Shown here: one piece after another, positions 43,743-50,067 of the stretch
How positions within the stretch are numbered: position 1 is the stretch's first letter
How the letters are laid out: every line of letters starts with the position of its first letter
Assembly (NCBI RefSeq): GCF_900108095.1
Contig: NZ_FNWL01000002.1
Coordinates: forward strand, 1,144,691-1,208,690
Direction of reading: 5' to 3'
Origin: Natronorubrum sediminis
GTDB lineage: Archaea > Halobacteriota > Halobacteria > Halobacteriales > Natrialbaceae
Length of the DNA: 64,000 bases
Made by a program: the position numbers and the translations under genes
The notes under the pieces: generated by a model
What the model saw: only the letters and a program-made list of their open reading frames with translations
Databases searched by the model: none
Told to the model about the DNA's origin: nothing

Positions 43743-44450
43743 CTATTCAGTCGAGGAAGGCGTTGCTCGAGCGATTCCGACGCGACCACTCGAGCGCTCG
43801 AGTTCGAATCCGAGTCGGCGAAGACAAGAGCGGGTGCGATTCGACGCCGATCCGTGGACGAGCACCTCCACGAGGTCCTCGGGTTCGTCGATGTCCGTGC
43901 CGAGACGAAACGAATCGACCGTCTCGAGTGTCGCCCCACCGTTGGACGCTTCCTCGCAGTGGTCCAGATAGGACGCCCCGTGGTAGTCGACTCGAAACGC
44001 TGGGTGACGGACGACGAGTGCGTTCGTTCCGCCACCACGACCCGGAGCGACGACCACGTCGCCGTCCGCGCCGAACAGTCGCTCGAGCGCGTCGGTCGTC
44101 GCGAGTGCGAGATCGGCCATGACGACCGCAACCCCATCAATTTCGCCGTTCTGAGCGGCGGCGTCTTGCTCTCGCTCGTCTCCACCCGGAAGGCGAGCGT
44201 TGACCGCGTCGGAGAGCGCTCGCTCGTCGACATCGACGGAAACCGACTCGAGGACGTGTCCCTCGAGATCCAGCGTGGTCGTTTCGAGGGGCGTCGTCGA
44301 CACGATCACCACCTCGTGGCCCGTCTCGACGACCGTCTCCACCACATCCGCGAGCATCGCTCGAGCCAGTCGCGAGCGCTCCGCTGGGGACAACAGCGAC
44401 TCGAGTCGGGTCTTCGGGTCGGCGGCGGCGAACGGCACGACGACGTGCAT
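43743..44450 (-). CDS. cofC: 2-phospho-L-lactate guanylyltransferase
   Basis: 235 residues from ATG 44450 (MHVVVPFAAADPKTRLESLL). CofC activates phospholactate (or a related phospho-acid) with GTP in F420 synthesis. The N-terminal PFAAADPKTRL is the nucleotidyltransferase loop (the P-x-K-T-RL of CofC). VVMADLALATTDALERLF, VVVAPGRGGGTNALVVRHP and FRLGTDIDEPEDL are family signatures. It precedes cofG by 66 bases on the same strand, giving a cofC-cofG transcription unit. Confidence 0.92.
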   Translation of the reverse strand: MHVVVPFAAADPKTRLESLLSPAERSRLARAMLADVVETVVETGHEVVIVSTTPLETTTLDLEGHVLESVSVDVDERALSDAVNARLPGGDEREQDAAAQNGEIDGVAVVMADLALATTDALERLFGADGDVVVAPGRGGGTNALVVRHPAFRVDYHGASYLDHCEEASNGGATLETVDSFRLGTDIDEPEDLVEVLVHGSASNRTRSCLRRLGFELERSSGRVGIARATPSSTE

Positions 44451-44531
44451 TGATCGATCGATTGGGACGACGCGGGCAAAAACACGTCGGAGACGAATTG
44501 TCGCGTCGCTCTCGAGTACCAAAAACAAGTG

Positions 44532-44612
44532 ATAGGGTCGGTTGTAAGTCATTTCCAGTCAGTCACCACCCGCTCTGGCGACTGACCGGTAACCAGTTAC
44601 GACCGACCCTAT
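44532..44612. repeat. Long imperfect palindrome, copy 3 (sub-type)
   Basis: Arms of 33 bases at 44532-44564 and 44580-44612 pair at 27 positions across a 15-base loop. The left arm starts ATAGGGTCGGTTGTAAGTCA and continues TTTCC; the outer sequence ATAxGG...TGTAAGTCAxTTCC is shared with the element at 30503. It lies 85 bases downstream of the cetZ stop codon and upstream of cofC. Confidence 0.6.
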
Positions 44613-44697
44613 GACGCCACAACCCACCGTTCGACCACGATCGTGCCCCCCGACACGAATGCGGCCGCTGGCGTCATCGCACCGGACGAATTCGAGC

Positions 44698-45879
44698 CTA
44701 AAACAGCGGCTCGAGTTCGTCCTCGTCGTCTTCGACGAGTTCTTCTAAGTTCTCTTCGCTCTCTTTCTGGATGTCATCCATGTTGTCTTGGGCCTCGATC
44801 GCAACCTGCTGCAGGCGTTTGATCCGTGGCACGTTCGTGACACCCGAAAGCAGTATCGCCGCAGCCACTTCCGGCTCCTCGCGCGGGAAGTCTCCACCAC
44901 GGACTTCCATGCTGCCGGTTTCCTCCTCGAGCCACTTCCGCCCGCGCTCGATGCCTTTTCGGTTGAGGTACTCCGATGGCCCGGAGACGACGAGCAACGC
45001 ACGCTCTGCGCCTTCGATCTCACAGGGTAGCGTCAGCCGGCCGAGTGCGGCCTTACGAACGAGGCTCGTGATTCGGTTCGTCGTGTTCGCAGCGTCCAAA
45101 TTGTCGGTGTTCCCACCGCTGTCGCCGGTAAAGCGCGAGAGGAGGCCGCCGCCCGTATTGACCTCGACGTCCTCGCTCGCGAAGCCGACGGTCGAGACAC
45201 CACCACCCGAGAGGGTGTTGATGATCTCCGAGGAGTCGACGACGCTCTCGGCGACTTCCTGATCGCCGCTGACTTCGCCCGCACCGAAGAGAATGCCGAA
45301 CCGACGGACGATCTCTTCGTTGATCTGGTCGTAGCCACCCTCGACGGACTCGCCGGTCTGTCGCCAGGAATCGTTGTCGAAGACGAGTAGATTGTCGACT
45401 TCGCGAACGAACGTCTGGAACGAGCGAGCCGCGTTGAGCGTGTAGATCCCGCCTTCGTCGGTTCCCGGCAGCACGCCGAGTCCGTAGACTGGGATCGTGT
45501 AGATCCGTTTGAGGTGTTTCGCGAGGACCGGCGCGCCGCCGGATCCGGTGCCGCCACCCATTCCGGAAACGACCAAGAATGCGTCGACCTCGTGGGTCGG
45601 AATCTGGTCGATTGCGTTCTGGACCTCGTCGATGTCCTCCTCGGCGATTTCCGCGCCGAGTTCGTTGTCTGCACCCACGCCATGGCCCTTCACGCGGGCC
45701 TGGCCGATGAGTACGCGATTCTCCTGTGGTATATTCTCGAGACCGATGAGATCCGCTTTCGCGGAGTTAACGGCAAGCGCCGCACGGACGATTCCGCTGT
45801 TCGTCCGATCGTCGTAATCGAGGAATCGATCGACGATCTTGCCACCGGCCTGTCCGAATCCGATCATCGCCAACTTCAT
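44698..45879 (-). CDS. cetZ: Tubulin-superfamily protein CetZ
   Basis: 393 residues. The GTP-binding signature is GMGGGTGSGGAPVL, with the family start MKLAMIGFGQAGGKIVDRFL. The T7/loop region has KLxx and ARSFQTFVREVDNLLVFDN. CetZ proteins are an archaeal tubulin-like group that control cell shape and motility in haloarchaea rather than forming the division ring. Residues 250-275 carry a Gly/Ser/Asp-rich loop, and the C-terminal tail is highly acidic (ENLEELVEDDEDELEPLF), like eukaryotic tubulin tails. Which CetZ subgroup it belongs to needs a tree. Confidence 0.92.
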   Translation of the reverse strand: MKLAMIGFGQAGGKIVDRFLDYDDRTNSGIVRAALAVNSAKADLIGLENIPQENRVLIGQARVKGHGVGADNELGAEIAEEDIDEVQNAIDQIPTHEVDAFLVVSGMGGGTGSGGAPVLAKHLKRIYTIPVYGLGVLPGTDEGGIYTLNAARSFQTFVREVDNLLVFDNDSWRQTGESVEGGYDQINEEIVRRFGILFGAGEVSGDQEVAESVVDSSEIINTLSGGGVSTVGFASEDVEVNTGGGLLSRFTGDSGGNTDNLDAANTTNRITSLVRKAALGRLTLPCEIEGAERALLVVSGPSEYLNRKGIERGRKWLEEETGSMEVRGGDFPREEPEVAAAILLSGVTNVPRIKRLQQVAIEAQDNMDDIQKESEENLEELVEDDEDELEPLF

Positions 45880-46129
45880 TATTTGTCAGGGGGCTCCGTT
45901 GAATTGGAACCAGAGTGATTAAGGACATAAATCTTTTGTTGGCGTGAATGTCTGCTCTCGTTTTGTGTTCGAAGAAACTGGGGGCAAGCGCGCCGTTGAA
46001 CGCTCGAAATGGGCTCGAGAAACGCCCTCATAGCGACACTGGTCCGTTGCTTTATACTGTCCCATTGCACACATGGCCGGGAACTCGAGGCGATCGCAGG
46101 TTATGTTGGGGATCTTTTATATTCGCGGT

Positions 46130-47050
46130 TCAGGCGGACAGTCGCTGTGGGTCCCACTGTCCGTGACCGTTCAATCCAAGGTACGCACCGAGCGTCTGCA
46201 GGTCGTCTTCTGTCACGTCAAACGCCGTCACGTCGTTGCTGACGACCGTGTTGTCCAACTCGAGCGAACGCGCCTGATCCGGACCGAACGGAACGAACGG
46301 GACGGGGCCGACCGCTTTGAGTCCGACTTTCGCGAGCGCACTCGGAATCGGGAGGATCGTGACCGACTGGTCCTCGGCTTCGTAGAGCAGTTCCGTGGCA
46401 TCCGCGAGCGTCACGATCTGTGGCCCGGCGAGTTCGTAGCGCTGGCCGACGTGACGCGCGTCCTCGAGGGCACTCGCGAGCAAGGGAACGAGATCACCGA
46501 CCCAGATCGGCTGAAACCGCGTCTCGCCACCACCCGGCAACCCGGTGACGTACGGGGTCGTGACCAGTTTCGTAAACTCGAGGAACTCCGCGCCGTCGCC
46601 GAAAACGACCGAGGGACGAACGATCGTCCACTCGAGGCGAGAGTCTGTGACGAGTGTTTCGGCACGGCCTTTCGCGCGGATGAAGTCGGTGGGACCGTTC
46701 GGGTCAGCATCGAGTGCACTCATCTGAAGGAATCGTTCGACGTCGTGTTCCTCGGCGGCGCGGACGAGGTTCGCCGTCCCGCCCGCGTGAACGGTCTCGT
46801 GATCGAGGCCATCCGGTGGCTGGAACAACGGCGAGAGCGAGACGAGGTTGACGATTGCGTCGGAGTCCGCGACGGTGTCGACGATCGAATCGTAGTCGGT
46901 GACGTCGCCACTCACGCGCGAGACGTCGACAGGAAGGTCGCCCTCATCCGGGTTGCGCGAGAGCGCCGTCACGTCGTGGCCGCGTTCGTCGAGTTCCGCA
47001 CAGAGTTCCGTTCCGATAAAGCCGGTTCCGCCGGCGACGAGGACCTGCAT
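46130..47050 (-). CDS. NAD-dependent epimerase-like protein (NDUFA9-type extended SDR)
   Basis: 306 residues (MQVLVAGGTGFIGTELCAEL). TGFIGTEL-type glycine loop at residues 9-14 (GGTGFIG), then VDVSRVSGDVTDYDSI, NLVSLSPLF, TIVRPSVVFGDG; the family resembles the NDUFA9/complex I-associated or NAD(P)H-binding NmrA group, with no classical catalytic YxxxK. Binding without redox catalysis is plausible. It is divergent from tmk. Confidence 0.83.
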   Translation of the reverse strand: MQVLVAGGTGFIGTELCAELDERGHDVTALSRNPDEGDLPVDVSRVSGDVTDYDSIVDTVADSDAIVNLVSLSPLFQPPDGLDHETVHAGGTANLVRAAEEHDVERFLQMSALDADPNGPTDFIRAKGRAETLVTDSRLEWTIVRPSVVFGDGAEFLEFTKLVTTPYVTGLPGGGETRFQPIWVGDLVPLLASALEDARHVGQRYELAGPQIVTLADATELLYEAEDQSVTILPIPSALAKVGLKAVGPVPFVPFGPDQARSLELDNTVVSNDVTAFDVTEDDLQTLGAYLGLNGHGQWDPQRLSA

Positions 47051-47174
47051 ACGGGGACGCTATCCCGTGCAACGGTAAATAGCTGGTTGACGCTTTACAC
47101 TCACAGGTGACTCGAGGACCCAACCCAGCAACTCGATGGATTGGAATAAGTAGCTCTCTCCCAGAGGTGCGAGC

Positions 47175-47777
47175 ATGCTGGTCACGCTCGAGGGGCTAGA
47201 CGGCAGCGGCAAGACGACCGTCTGGGAGGCGCTTCAGGAGACCTATCCCGACGCGACGTTCACCCGCGAACCGACGAACGACTCCTGGTACGGCGACGCC
47301 GTCTACCGATCGATCGGAGACGACGACGCGGACTCGCTCGCGGAACTGTTTCTCTACACCGCAGACCACGCCGACCACCTCTCCCGGAAGATCGAACCCG
47401 CCCTCGAGCGCGGCGACCTCGTGATCTCCGATCGCTACTCCGACTCCCGCTTCGCCTATCAGGGCGCGACCCTCGACGCGTCCGACCGACTCGCGGTCGA
47501 CGACCCCCTCGAGTACGTCGTCGACGTCCACGAACCGTTCTCCAGACCGCCAGACCTGACGCTCTACCTCGACGTCGACCCGAAGACGGCCGCCGAACGT
47601 GCGGGCGCGACGAACAAGTTCGAACGCGTCGAGTACCTCGAGTCGGTCCACGCGAACTACGAACGATTGCTCGAGCGCGAGCCCGAGCGATTCGTTCGCG
47701 TCGACGCGAGCCAGGAGCCGGACGCGGTGCTCGAGGAAGTGCGAGAGGTGCTGGCAGAAGCGATTGGTGGCGAGTAA
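47175..47777 (+). CDS. tmk: Thymidylate kinase
   Basis: 200 residues. Phosphorylates dTMP to dTDP. P-loop [12 protein letters not shown] (residues ~8-19), DR(Y/H) motif in [15 protein letters not shown], and [17 protein letters not shown] with the LID region. A gaggtg Shine-Dalgarno-like run is 9 bases before the ATG at 47175. Length is normal for archaeal Tmk. Confidence 0.94.
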
Positions 47778-47977: not shown

Positions 47978-48208
47978 TTAGTCCATCGCGATGTACGTCT
48001 TCGTCTCCGTGACGCCCTCGAGACTCTGTAATTCCGAGGAGACGCTCTGAAGGATATCGTAGACTTCCGCGGCGTCGATCTCGACGATAATGTCGTAATC
48101 GCCAGCGACGATGTGCGCGTCGGACACTGGCTCGAGGTCCCGAATCGACTCGAGGAGCCCCTCTGATTTCCCGGCTGCCGTCTTCACCATAATAAATGCG
48201 TGAACCAT
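47978..48208 (-). CDS. Stand-alone Lrp/AsnC ligand-binding (RAM) domain, copy 1
   Basis: 76 residues (MVHAFIMVKTAAGKSEGLLE). This is only the AsnC C-terminal ligand-binding domain, without the N-terminal DNA-binding helix-turn-helix. AHIVAGDYDIIVEIDA and GVTETKTYIAMD are the typical strand/turn motifs of the RAM fold. Such SARD-like proteins oligomerise and bind amino acids or other small ligands. It is divergent from trkA; its paralogue follows trkA (49049). Confidence 0.87.
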   Translation of the reverse strand: MVHAFIMVKTAAGKSEGLLESIRDLEPVSDAHIVAGDYDIIVEIDAAEVYDILQSVSSELQSLEGVTETKTYIAMD

Positions 48209-48329
48209 CGCTCGAGGGTGTGGTACACTATCACACGACTAAAAGCTTTGCCCGTTCTCGAGCGGAAACTGAACGGCTAGCATGGTAATTGGGGGCAAGC
48301 TTATTGGTGGGGCGAGCGTACTCCGGGCC

Positions 48330-49049
48330 ATGCGGTTCGTGATTATCGGGGCAGGACGAGTCGGCTTGCGCACGGCGCGTGTCCTCCGAGACGAAGGCCA
48401 CGAGGTGACGTTGATCGAACGCGACGAGGGGATGATTCGCCGGGCCCGTTCCCAAGAGTTCACCGTCGTCGACGGCGACGGCTCGAAAGAAGACGTGCTC
48501 GAGACGGCCGGAATAGCCGACGCTGACGCGTTGGGGGCCCTGACGGGCGACCTGAACGTCAACTTCACGGCCTGTATGATCGCCAACCACCACGGCTGCC
48601 GGACGACCATGCGGATCGACGAGGCCTACCGCGAGAACATCTATCGGACGTACGCCGACGAAGTCGACGAGGTGATCTACCCCGAACGGCTGGGTGCCAT
48701 CAGCGCGAAAAACGCGCTTCTCGGGGGCACGATTCGGGCGATTGCGGATATCGCGCCCCACTTGCAGGTCGTCGAACACACGATCACGGACGAGGCCCCG
48801 ACCAACGGCTACACGGTCAACGAACTGCAACTGCCCGCACATGCGACCGTGCTCGCCTTCGGCAAGTCCGGTCAGGAACTCGAGTTGCCCGGCGACGACC
48901 TCTCGCTCGAGGTCGGCGACCGACTCGTAGTGCTCGCAGATTACGACGTGTTGAGCACGGTTCGACAACTACTGATCGGCGAGTCGGAACGGGAGGCGAG
49001 TGCTAACGCGGGCTCGGACGCGACCTCGAGCACAGGAGGTGTGAACTGA
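48330..49049 (+). CDS. trkA: TrkA-type potassium-uptake regulator (RCK domain)
   Basis: 239 residues from ATG 48330 (MRFVIIGAGRVGLRTARVL). GAGRVG (GxGxxG) NAD-binding loop at 7-12, IERDEG, VVDGDGSKEDVLETAGI: a TrkA-N (RCK_N) domain of about 135 residues. Residues ~140-220 form a TrkA-C domain (HTITDEAPTNGYTVNELQLPA ... DLSLEVGDRLVVLADY). The C-terminus ends in an Ala/Ser tail. It gates a K+ uptake channel in response to nucleotides; the partner TrkH/Ktr gene is not in the window. It overlaps the following AsnC-domain gene by one base (TGATG). Confidence 0.9.
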   Translation: MRFVIIGAGRVGLRTARVLRDEGHEVTLIERDEGMIRRARSQEFTVVDGDGSKEDVLETAGIADADALGALTGDLNVNFTACMIANHHGCRTTMRIDEAYRENIYRTYADEVDEVIYPERLGAISAKNALLGGTIRAIADIAPHLQVVEHTITDEAPTNGYTVNELQLPAHATVLAFGKSGQELELPGDDLSLEVGDRLVVLADYDVLSTVRQLLIGESEREASANAGSDATSSTGGVN

Positions 49050-49279
49050 TGGTGACAGCATTTATCATGATCAAGGCGAACACGGGCGAGGCGGATCGAC
49101 TGCGAGAGAGCATTCAGGACCTCGACGGCGTCCAATCGGCCCACATCGTCGCTGGCGATGTCGACATCATCGCGAAAGCGCAAGTCGACACGCCGGCGGC
49201 GGTCAAAGAGATCGCCGCAACCCAGATACAGGGAATCTCGGGCATTGAGAACACGCAGACGTACATCGCGATGGACTAA
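49049..49279 (+). CDS. Stand-alone Lrp/AsnC ligand-binding (RAM) domain, copy 2
   Basis: 76 residues (MVTAFIMIKANTGEADRLRE). Same length and fold as the copy at 47978; it shares AFIM-K, AHIVAGD.DII and TYIAMD at the C-terminus. The start codon overlaps the trkA stop codon by one base, so it should be translated with trkA. The pairing with an RCK protein suggests that a ligand sensed by the RAM domain feeds into K+ uptake control. Confidence 0.87.
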   Translation: MVTAFIMIKANTGEADRLRESIQDLDGVQSAHIVAGDVDIIAKAQVDTPAAVKEIAATQIQGISGIENTQTYIAMD

Positions 49280-49542: not shown

Positions 49543-50067
49543 TTACATCGGCATACCGCCGCTCTCGCCCTCGCTTGCCTGCTGACCGCGGTTCTGGGCG
49601 TTCTCGAGTAACGTCGCGGCGGGGCCCCGGTACTCGTAGCCGGGGATGATTCCCTGTGCGTACGTGCCTTCGACGTACTCGACGAGTGTCTTGGCGTCTT
49701 CGACTCCCTTATCGGCGTCCCAGGCAGTGTACTCGAGGGAGACCGTCACGTCGCTCGCCTCGCGCTCGACGACCGGGTCGTCGTGGGTGTCGGTGTGGGC
49801 GACGGTGTAGACGTCCTCGAGTCGTCGCTCGAGCGTCTCGAACCAGCCGTCTTCGACGACTGACGCGACGGTCTCGCCGGCGACGGCGGCGTCGAGCGTA
49901 GGGAGCGTGACGGTGACGTGAAAGCGGCCGTCTCGCCCGTCTGGGGCGGGTTCGGCGTCGATGTGCGTCTCGAAGACGGTTGTTTCGAGTTCGAAGGCGT
50001 CGTCTGCGCGCGCGAACGAGTCATGAGACTCGAGTTCGGCCGCGATTTCGTCTGGAAGGGTGCTCAT
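49543..50067 (-). CDS. Uncharacterised haloarchaeal protein (DUF5813-like)
   Basis: 174 residues (MSTLPDEIAAELESHDSFAR). The sequence is a soluble alpha/beta domain: FELETTVFETHIDAEP, RFHVTVTLPTLDAAVAG, VVEREASDVTVSLEYTAWD, and TLVEYVEGTYAQGIIPGYEYRGPAATLLENA. From memory this is the haloarchaea-specific DUF5813 group; function unknown. The C-terminal tail is low-complexity (RGQQASEGESGGMPM). Confidence 0.78.
   Translation of the reverse strand: MSTLPDEIAAELESHDSFARADDAFELETTVFETHIDAEPAPDGRDGRFHVTVTLPTLDAAVAGETVASVVEDGWFETLERRLEDVYTVAHTDTHDDPVVEREASDVTVSLEYTAWDADKGVEDAKTLVEYVEGTYAQGIIPGYEYRGPAATLLENAQNRGQQASEGESGGMPM

Follow-up and report, generated by a model that had tools for sequence, protein, structure and literature searches.

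A TrkA-type regulator paired with stand-alone RAM proteins across the Halobacteria, a possible control module for potassium transport

We analyzed a 64,000-nt window of the Natronorubrum sediminis genome (contig NZ_FNWL01000002.1, positions 1,144,691 to 1,208,690) and found a trio of genes encoding a TrkA-type potassium regulator and two stand-alone AsnC-type sensor proteins, here termed RAM-A and RAM-B. Their pairing extends well beyond the window and across the class, and is not a local accident. The parts of the trio are of known kinds; what is new is their stable combination. As its most likely function, at a probability of roughly 0.4, we propose that the trio constitutes a haloarchaeal module in which small sensors and a regulator ring jointly control K+ transport. 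Haloarchaea keep very high intracellular K+, and a conserved assembly of RAM proteins with an RCK regulator would give stand-alone RAM proteins a concrete, testable role and may link amino-acid status directly to K+ transport.

The central gene, trkA (48330..49049, plus strand), encodes a single-RCK regulator of 239 aa. RAM-A (47978..48208, minus strand, 76 aa) diverges from it across an intergenic spacer of 121 bp, while RAM-B (49049..49279, plus strand, 76 aa) overlaps its end by one base, the trkA TGA occupying positions 49047-49049 and the RAM-B ATG positions 49049-49051. The sequence-only reading of this DNA had described two 76-residue RAM paralogues on either side of trkA, one divergent and one with a one-base overlap; the coordinates agree, and the paralogy is borne out by a shared PF01037 domain and 45% identity over 76 aa. 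A longer trkA frame opens at 48282, which is probably not the true start because an ATG at the position aligned with 48330 was present in all 96 compared loci. The locus is bordered on one side by cofC, cetZ, a nolA-like epimerase gene and a dTMP kinase gene (43743-47777) and on the other by a DUF5813 gene (49543-50067), and stretches of this neighbor-gene order reappear in many relatives.

Pfam assigned PF01037 as the sole domain of RAM-A (44.3 bits) and RAM-B (50.2 bits; cut-off 25), spanning residues 6-75 of 76. A helix-turn-helix (HTH) or other DNA-binding domain was matched in neither protein, in line with what had been read from the sequence, and both therefore lack the N-terminal HTH by which Lrp/AsnC transcription factors are recognized. 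Lengths were nearly constant among relatives, at 76-80 aa for RAM-A (94/94) and 75-78 aa for RAM-B (96/97), the exception being a 183-aa frame in the second trkA-RAM-B copy of genome G114. In phylogenetic analysis, all 97 RAM-B sequences formed one clade (support 0.92); RAM-A, a conserved paralogue subfamily, clustered with six other haloarchaeal stand-alone RAM proteins at a weak support of 0.42. Alignments revealed a conserved pocket region. RAM-B carries near-invariant VAGDVD, P49, K53 and TY..M residues. RAM-A retained the motif G-x-Y/F-D in 89 of 94 sequences, as do the PDB matches, whereas RAM-B has GDVD in its place, a difference that suggests differing ligands or roles for the two proteins. 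PDB matches comprised the short AsnC-type chains 2e1a/2z4p, 2cvi, 2zbc and 2djw as well as 2gqq, a leucine-responsive regulatory protein. The best, 2e1a/2z4p and 2zbc, are chains of 75-83 aa, which we take to be DM1 and STS042. Like such stand-alone feast/famine proteins of the DM type (Pyrococcus horikoshii DM1, Sulfolobus tokodaii STS042), RAM-A and RAM-B consist of a RAM domain alone (~75 aa); unlike them, they occur as two paralogues tied to an RCK regulator. A third stand-alone RAM gene was located elsewhere in N. sediminis (C4:28411-28638; L125:3912-4139). Its product is 38% identical to RAM-A, and neither a recognizable transporter gene alongside nor a close copy of the RAM-A promoter palindrome described below was found.

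The best Pfam matches of the TrkA protein were TrkA_N (87 bits, cut-off 23.8) and TrkA_C (36.3 bits, cut-off 27). Foldseek retrieved KtrA and TrkA rings, with KtrA described in PDB titles as an octameric ring, and G7, G9 and G12 of the nucleotide-site motif GxGxxG were invariant among 24 sequences. The protein thus resembles KtrA/TrkA RCK regulators in domains, fold matches and nucleotide motif, but its locus contains two RAM genes in place of trkH, for which N. sediminis has loci elsewhere (C2:79 kb and C1:1367 kb). As a co-varying partner, TrkH was uninformative, being found in 145/145 genomes.

To assess conservation, we searched 145 Halobacteria genomes with TrkA (presence at E < 1e-75), RAM-B (E <= 1e-13) and RAM-A. 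TrkA and RAM-B were both present in 114 genomes and both absent from 24, with TrkA lacking RAM-B in three (G014, G044, G073) and RAM-B lacking TrkA in another three (G001, G007, G099); G034, in which trkA is broken by a contig end, was kept out of the 2 x 2 table. Lack of conservation had been named at the outset as an outcome that would speak against a functional pairing, and the trkA-RAM-B pair instead proved to be conserved class-wide. Fisher P values for co-occurrence were 6e-21 per genome and 1.2e-6 per genus, both overstating independence because the genomes are related. The 24 double-absent genomes comprise six genera with neither gene in any sampled member, plus one species (G067) in a genus that otherwise has TrkA and RAM-B. 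Joint absence alone is no proof of joint function since one deletion could remove adjacent genes. In two of the genomes without TrkA, G001 and G007 (loci L121 and L122), RAM-A and RAM-B stand back to back; conversely, G044, G073 and G014 retain TrkA and lack the RAM proteins.

Gene order was read at 96 loci in 95 of the 117 TrkA-positive genomes, with G114 contributing two copies. RAM-B and trkA share a strand at each of the 93 loci that have the two genes, and the distance from the trkA stop to the RAM-B start is -1 to +5 nt throughout. Natural TrkA-RAM-B fusions were sought among these loci and none was found, as RAM-B always begins at or past the trkA stop codon. A search with the RAM-B alignment gave a matching picture. 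TrkA lay upstream on the same strand in 79 of 80 named loci, the remaining one being at a contig edge, and the gap was -19 to +4 nt in 77 of these 79 and 57 and 60 nt in the other two. RAM-A fell inside the fetched stretch at 83 of 96 loci, divergent from trkA in 72 and on the same strand in 11, and outside at 13. Distances of 1.7 kb and 4 kb were seen in G087 and G060, and of tens to hundreds of kilobases in G032, G077, G045, G059 and G114, as well as in G041, whose trkA locus is not among the 96. No RAM-A was detected at E <= 1e-15 in G066, G002, G014, G044 and G073. Conserved spacing and RAM protein lengths across loci rule out a chance arrangement.

Expression signals distinguish RAM-B from its neighbors. 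A Shine-Dalgarno sequence, GGAGGTG (49035..49041, plus strand), is embedded in the 3' end of trkA, 7 nt ahead of the RAM-B ATG, and encodes the conserved C-terminal GGV of TrkA. Matches of at least 5 nt precede RAM-B in 79/97 loci, compared with 4/98 for trkA (including one start cut by a contig end, L130), 3/94 for RAM-A and ~12% at random trkA positions. The start overlap or close spacing, together with this embedded site, makes it likely that RAM-B is translationally coupled to trkA. Upstream of trkA and RAM-A, an A+T peak across 69 intergenic regions (7-mers ending 23-27 nt before the starts) and inspection of the window by eye point to TATA-like stretches at 48297..48305 (plus strand) and 48238..48246 (minus strand), respectively. 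Both promoters would thus be of the type of leaderless archaeal genes. A scan for sigma-70 promoters and terminators returned nothing, as expected for an archaeon.

Between the RAM-A TATA-like stretch and ATG lies a 19-bp palindrome, GTGTGGTACACTATCACAC (48218..48236), with an 8-3-8 layout, 9 nt upstream of the ATG, which we regard as a putative operator. From the 72 divergent RAM-A loci we took 69 regions of 40-260 nt. A palindrome with at most 4 mismatches in 16 positions was present on the RAM-A side in 38 of them, compared to 2.6 in shuffled dinucleotide-model resamples, and on the trkA side in eight. Where RAM-A is co-directional with trkA, the palindrome (<=4 mismatches) was found in 11/11 loci, and among the 80 named loci RAM-A was in reach at 65, 55 of which carry it at the same threshold. 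The palindrome mostly goes along with RAM-A on relocation: of the nine copies that have moved or lie at a distance, five have at most three mismatches and four have 4 to 6, and G032, G077 and G045 keep the promoter palindrome at a RAM-A gene far from trkA. Six other stand-alone RAM genes scored 5 to 8 mismatches. Among the genomes without TrkA, RAM-A scored 8, 8 and 5 mismatches in G001, G007 and G099, such that G001 and G007 (L121 and L122) lack the palindrome along with trkA.

The core of the palindrome, TGRTA-N3-TAYCA, fits the format of archaeal Lrp sites, described as inverted repeats of 13-17 bp (PMC2995911), and because of this match an Lrp is a candidate binder. Three further motifs considered for its identity, the RosR consensus (PMC4287449), the OxsR motif (PMC9426492) and an AT-rich motif (PMC6801745), differ from it in the form given in the consulted parts of these sources. 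The conserved palindrome offers a way to identify the transcription factor behind RAM-A expression. In the N. sediminis genome, the RAM-A site is the only perfect match; at <=3 mismatches, 25 forward sites compare with 20 for a reversed control, and across 37 family genomes at <=2 mismatches, 100 compare with 27. For possible targets we examined 77 sites, four from N. sediminis and 73 among the family matches listed. Within these listed matches, only superoxide dismutase (8), RAM-A (7) and TrkA-type genes (6) were met more than twice; five of the six TrkA-type targets share the RAM-A site, 24 of the 77 sites have no called ORF and most other targets are single. We treat a wider regulon as a lead only. 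At a distance of 39-50 nt, a related palindrome precedes superoxide dismutase genes in at least eight family genomes (L287, L289, L291, L323, L345, L347, L352, L354), where it may be the site of another regulator; the one product checked by domain matched Sod_Fe_N. Two-mismatch copies were also noted in N. sediminis at C1:958271 (L271:1501-3016), 12 nt upstream of the earliest potential start of a gene for an SBP_bac_5 solute-binding protein, and, among the matches listed, in G132 (L304:1501), 36 nt before another TrkA-like gene.

Related arrangements have been reported in part. A 2023 analysis of cetZ1 regions describes arCOG01117 regulators, mostly paired, flanking an arCOG01957 potassium-transport gene present in 12 of 20 regions (PMC9856176). 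This is the same arrangement as ours around a potassium gene; the consulted text calls the pairs transcriptional regulators, and the missing HTH, the spacing, the Shine-Dalgarno sequence, the palindrome and the joint loss are added here. For Haloferax mediterranei, two RAM-only proteins, WP_004059676.1 and WP_004059678.1, are on record (PMC8229911), and we guess that TrkA is the protein with the intervening accession. Haloarchaeal Lrp proteins of the Trh2 type carry a fused TrkA_C domain (PMC4236453, PMC8229911) and likewise join an Lrp-type protein to an RCK C-domain. As described in these excerpts, the Trh2 type is a single fused DNA-binding protein, whereas the present locus encodes three separate proteins without HTH. 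In the portions of the open-licence literature consulted, we recognized no treatment of the trio as a protein-level module, and a 2010 review describes the physiological importance of stand-alone RAM proteins as unclear (PMC2995911).

In the proposed module, TrkA would form a KtrA-type RCK ring that, judging from its family, senses nucleotides and gates a K+ transporter whose gene lies elsewhere. RAM-B would be produced in step with TrkA through its overlapping start and the Shine-Dalgarno sequence in the trkA tail, and RAM-A would be expressed from its own divergent promoter, with the palindrome as putative operator. As homo- or hetero-oligomers, the RAM proteins would each recognize a small ligand, probably an amino acid or a metabolite of that kind, and adjust K+ flux by docking on the TrkA ring, with the amount of RAM-A setting the strength of the response. 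The symmetries of the partners could match because the KtrA ring is octameric and DM1 can form octamers (PMC2995911). Beyond the class-wide TrkA/RAM-B pairing, the 93/93 spacing and the embedded Shine-Dalgarno sequence, we counted in favor of this module that RAM proteins stay at 75-80 aa without HTH, that RAM-A and its palindrome are retained far from trkA, that in another family three of four genomes have a stand-alone RAM gene beside exchanger-family genes and that Lrp proteins with fused TrkA_C have been reported. Counted against it were the RAM pairs without trkA (G001, G007), the replacement of trkA by an MgtE gene in G099, the TrkA genes without RAM genes, the possible origin of joint absence in single deletions, the lack of any trkA-RAM tandem in 30 genomes outside the class and two further analyses. 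An AlphaFold2 model of TrkA and RAM-B as a read-through chain gave a pTM of 0.49, a linker pLDDT of ~33 and no confident interface, with RAM-B covered by 10 of 42 alignment rows and ring contacts beyond the reach of a single chain. Tree-distance correlation over 33 loci yielded a partial r of 0.20 for TrkA and RAM-B, equal to the tmk control (0.20), and 0.36 for TrkA and RAM-A. The sequence-only reading had suggested that ligand sensing modulates K+ uptake by protein contact rather than transcription. Its first part fits the conserved gene pair and the missing HTH, sits less well with the unconfident model and stays plausible; the exclusion of transcription is not borne out, as the conserved palindrome at the RAM-A promoter makes transcription probably a part of the circuit.

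Several of these observations can be read differently. The next most likely explanation, possible although we lean against it, is that RAM-A and RAM-B act on transcription by mixing into full-length Lrp oligomers and altering their ligand response, their position beside trkA reflecting that K+ and amino-acid status are set together. In vitro, a stand-alone RAM protein can assemble with a full-length Lrp regulator, as P. horikoshii DM1 does with full-length FL11 in a hetero-octamer (PMC2995911), and partners could be at hand in N. sediminis, where seven of ten PF01037 places lie within frames of 141-224 aa, possible full-length Lrps. The Lrp-like format of the palindrome core and the survival of the RAM pair in two genomes that lack trkA also favor mixing with Lrps, which leaves the tight linkage of RAM-B to trkA in 93/93 loci unexplained. 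We judge it unlikely that the genes merely share an operon, co-expressed for supply, with RAM proteins that contact neither TrkA nor its transporter. Synteny does extend to other genes over much of the region, discordant genomes occur and the contact model is unconfident, but spacing, Shine-Dalgarno sequence and joint presence are kept class-wide, and RAM-A is retained where synteny is broken.

A role of the RAM pair as a general cation-transport sensor serving several transporter types (RCK or CBS), with TrkA merely its usual neighbor, appears improbable to us by a wide measure. Evidence for it comes from G099 (L123:3461-5324), in which trkA is replaced, between RAM-B and RAM-A, by a gene whose product belongs to the MgtE family of divalent cation transporters (PF01769) and has CBS domains, along with the RAM pairs without trkA in G001 and G007. 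However, in 30 MgtE-like loci retrieved across 20 genomes of the genus that includes G099, RAM genes are adjacent only in G099 itself. Outside the class, a search of 60 phylum genomes (seven Halobacteria and 53 others) with the RAM alignment matched 37 of the 53, and in the 30 of these also searched with the TrkA alignment, TrkA and RAM matches never came within 1 kb of each other. In family f18, stand-alone RAM genes occur less than 400 nt from exchanger-family genes in G168, G195 and G186 but not G177 (L245:3107-9618, L246:493-2869, L257:2834-4753), as assigned by Pfam in G168 and G186 and, in G195, by 67% identity to the protein of G168. In G168 the cluster encodes two exchangers, one with TrkA_N and TrkA_C and the other with TrkA_C, along with a 228-aa TrkA and TrkH. 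These clusters favor a general sensor, against which stands that, of the 25 RAM loci from outside the class, only these three were matched by any of seven cation-transport queries.

Returning to the sensor-and-ring module, we tentatively extend it to a bolder version that we consider doubtful as a whole: RAM-A and RAM-B would make up a new class of accessory subunits for K+ transport, an amino-acid-type sensor octamer on the octameric TrkA ring, through which a metabolite such as glutamate, as K+ counter-ion, directly sets K+ flux, with the palindrome, at RAM-A only, setting the gain and the design, stand-alone RAM proteins with RCK or CBS cation transporters, recurring in other archaea. A further type of RAM neighborhood was observed in family f14, where a gene for a 219-aa protein directly follows a stand-alone RAM gene (L248:2752-3644, L249:3124-4018, L256:4529-5423); the one product tested contains ACT and DUF5612 domains.
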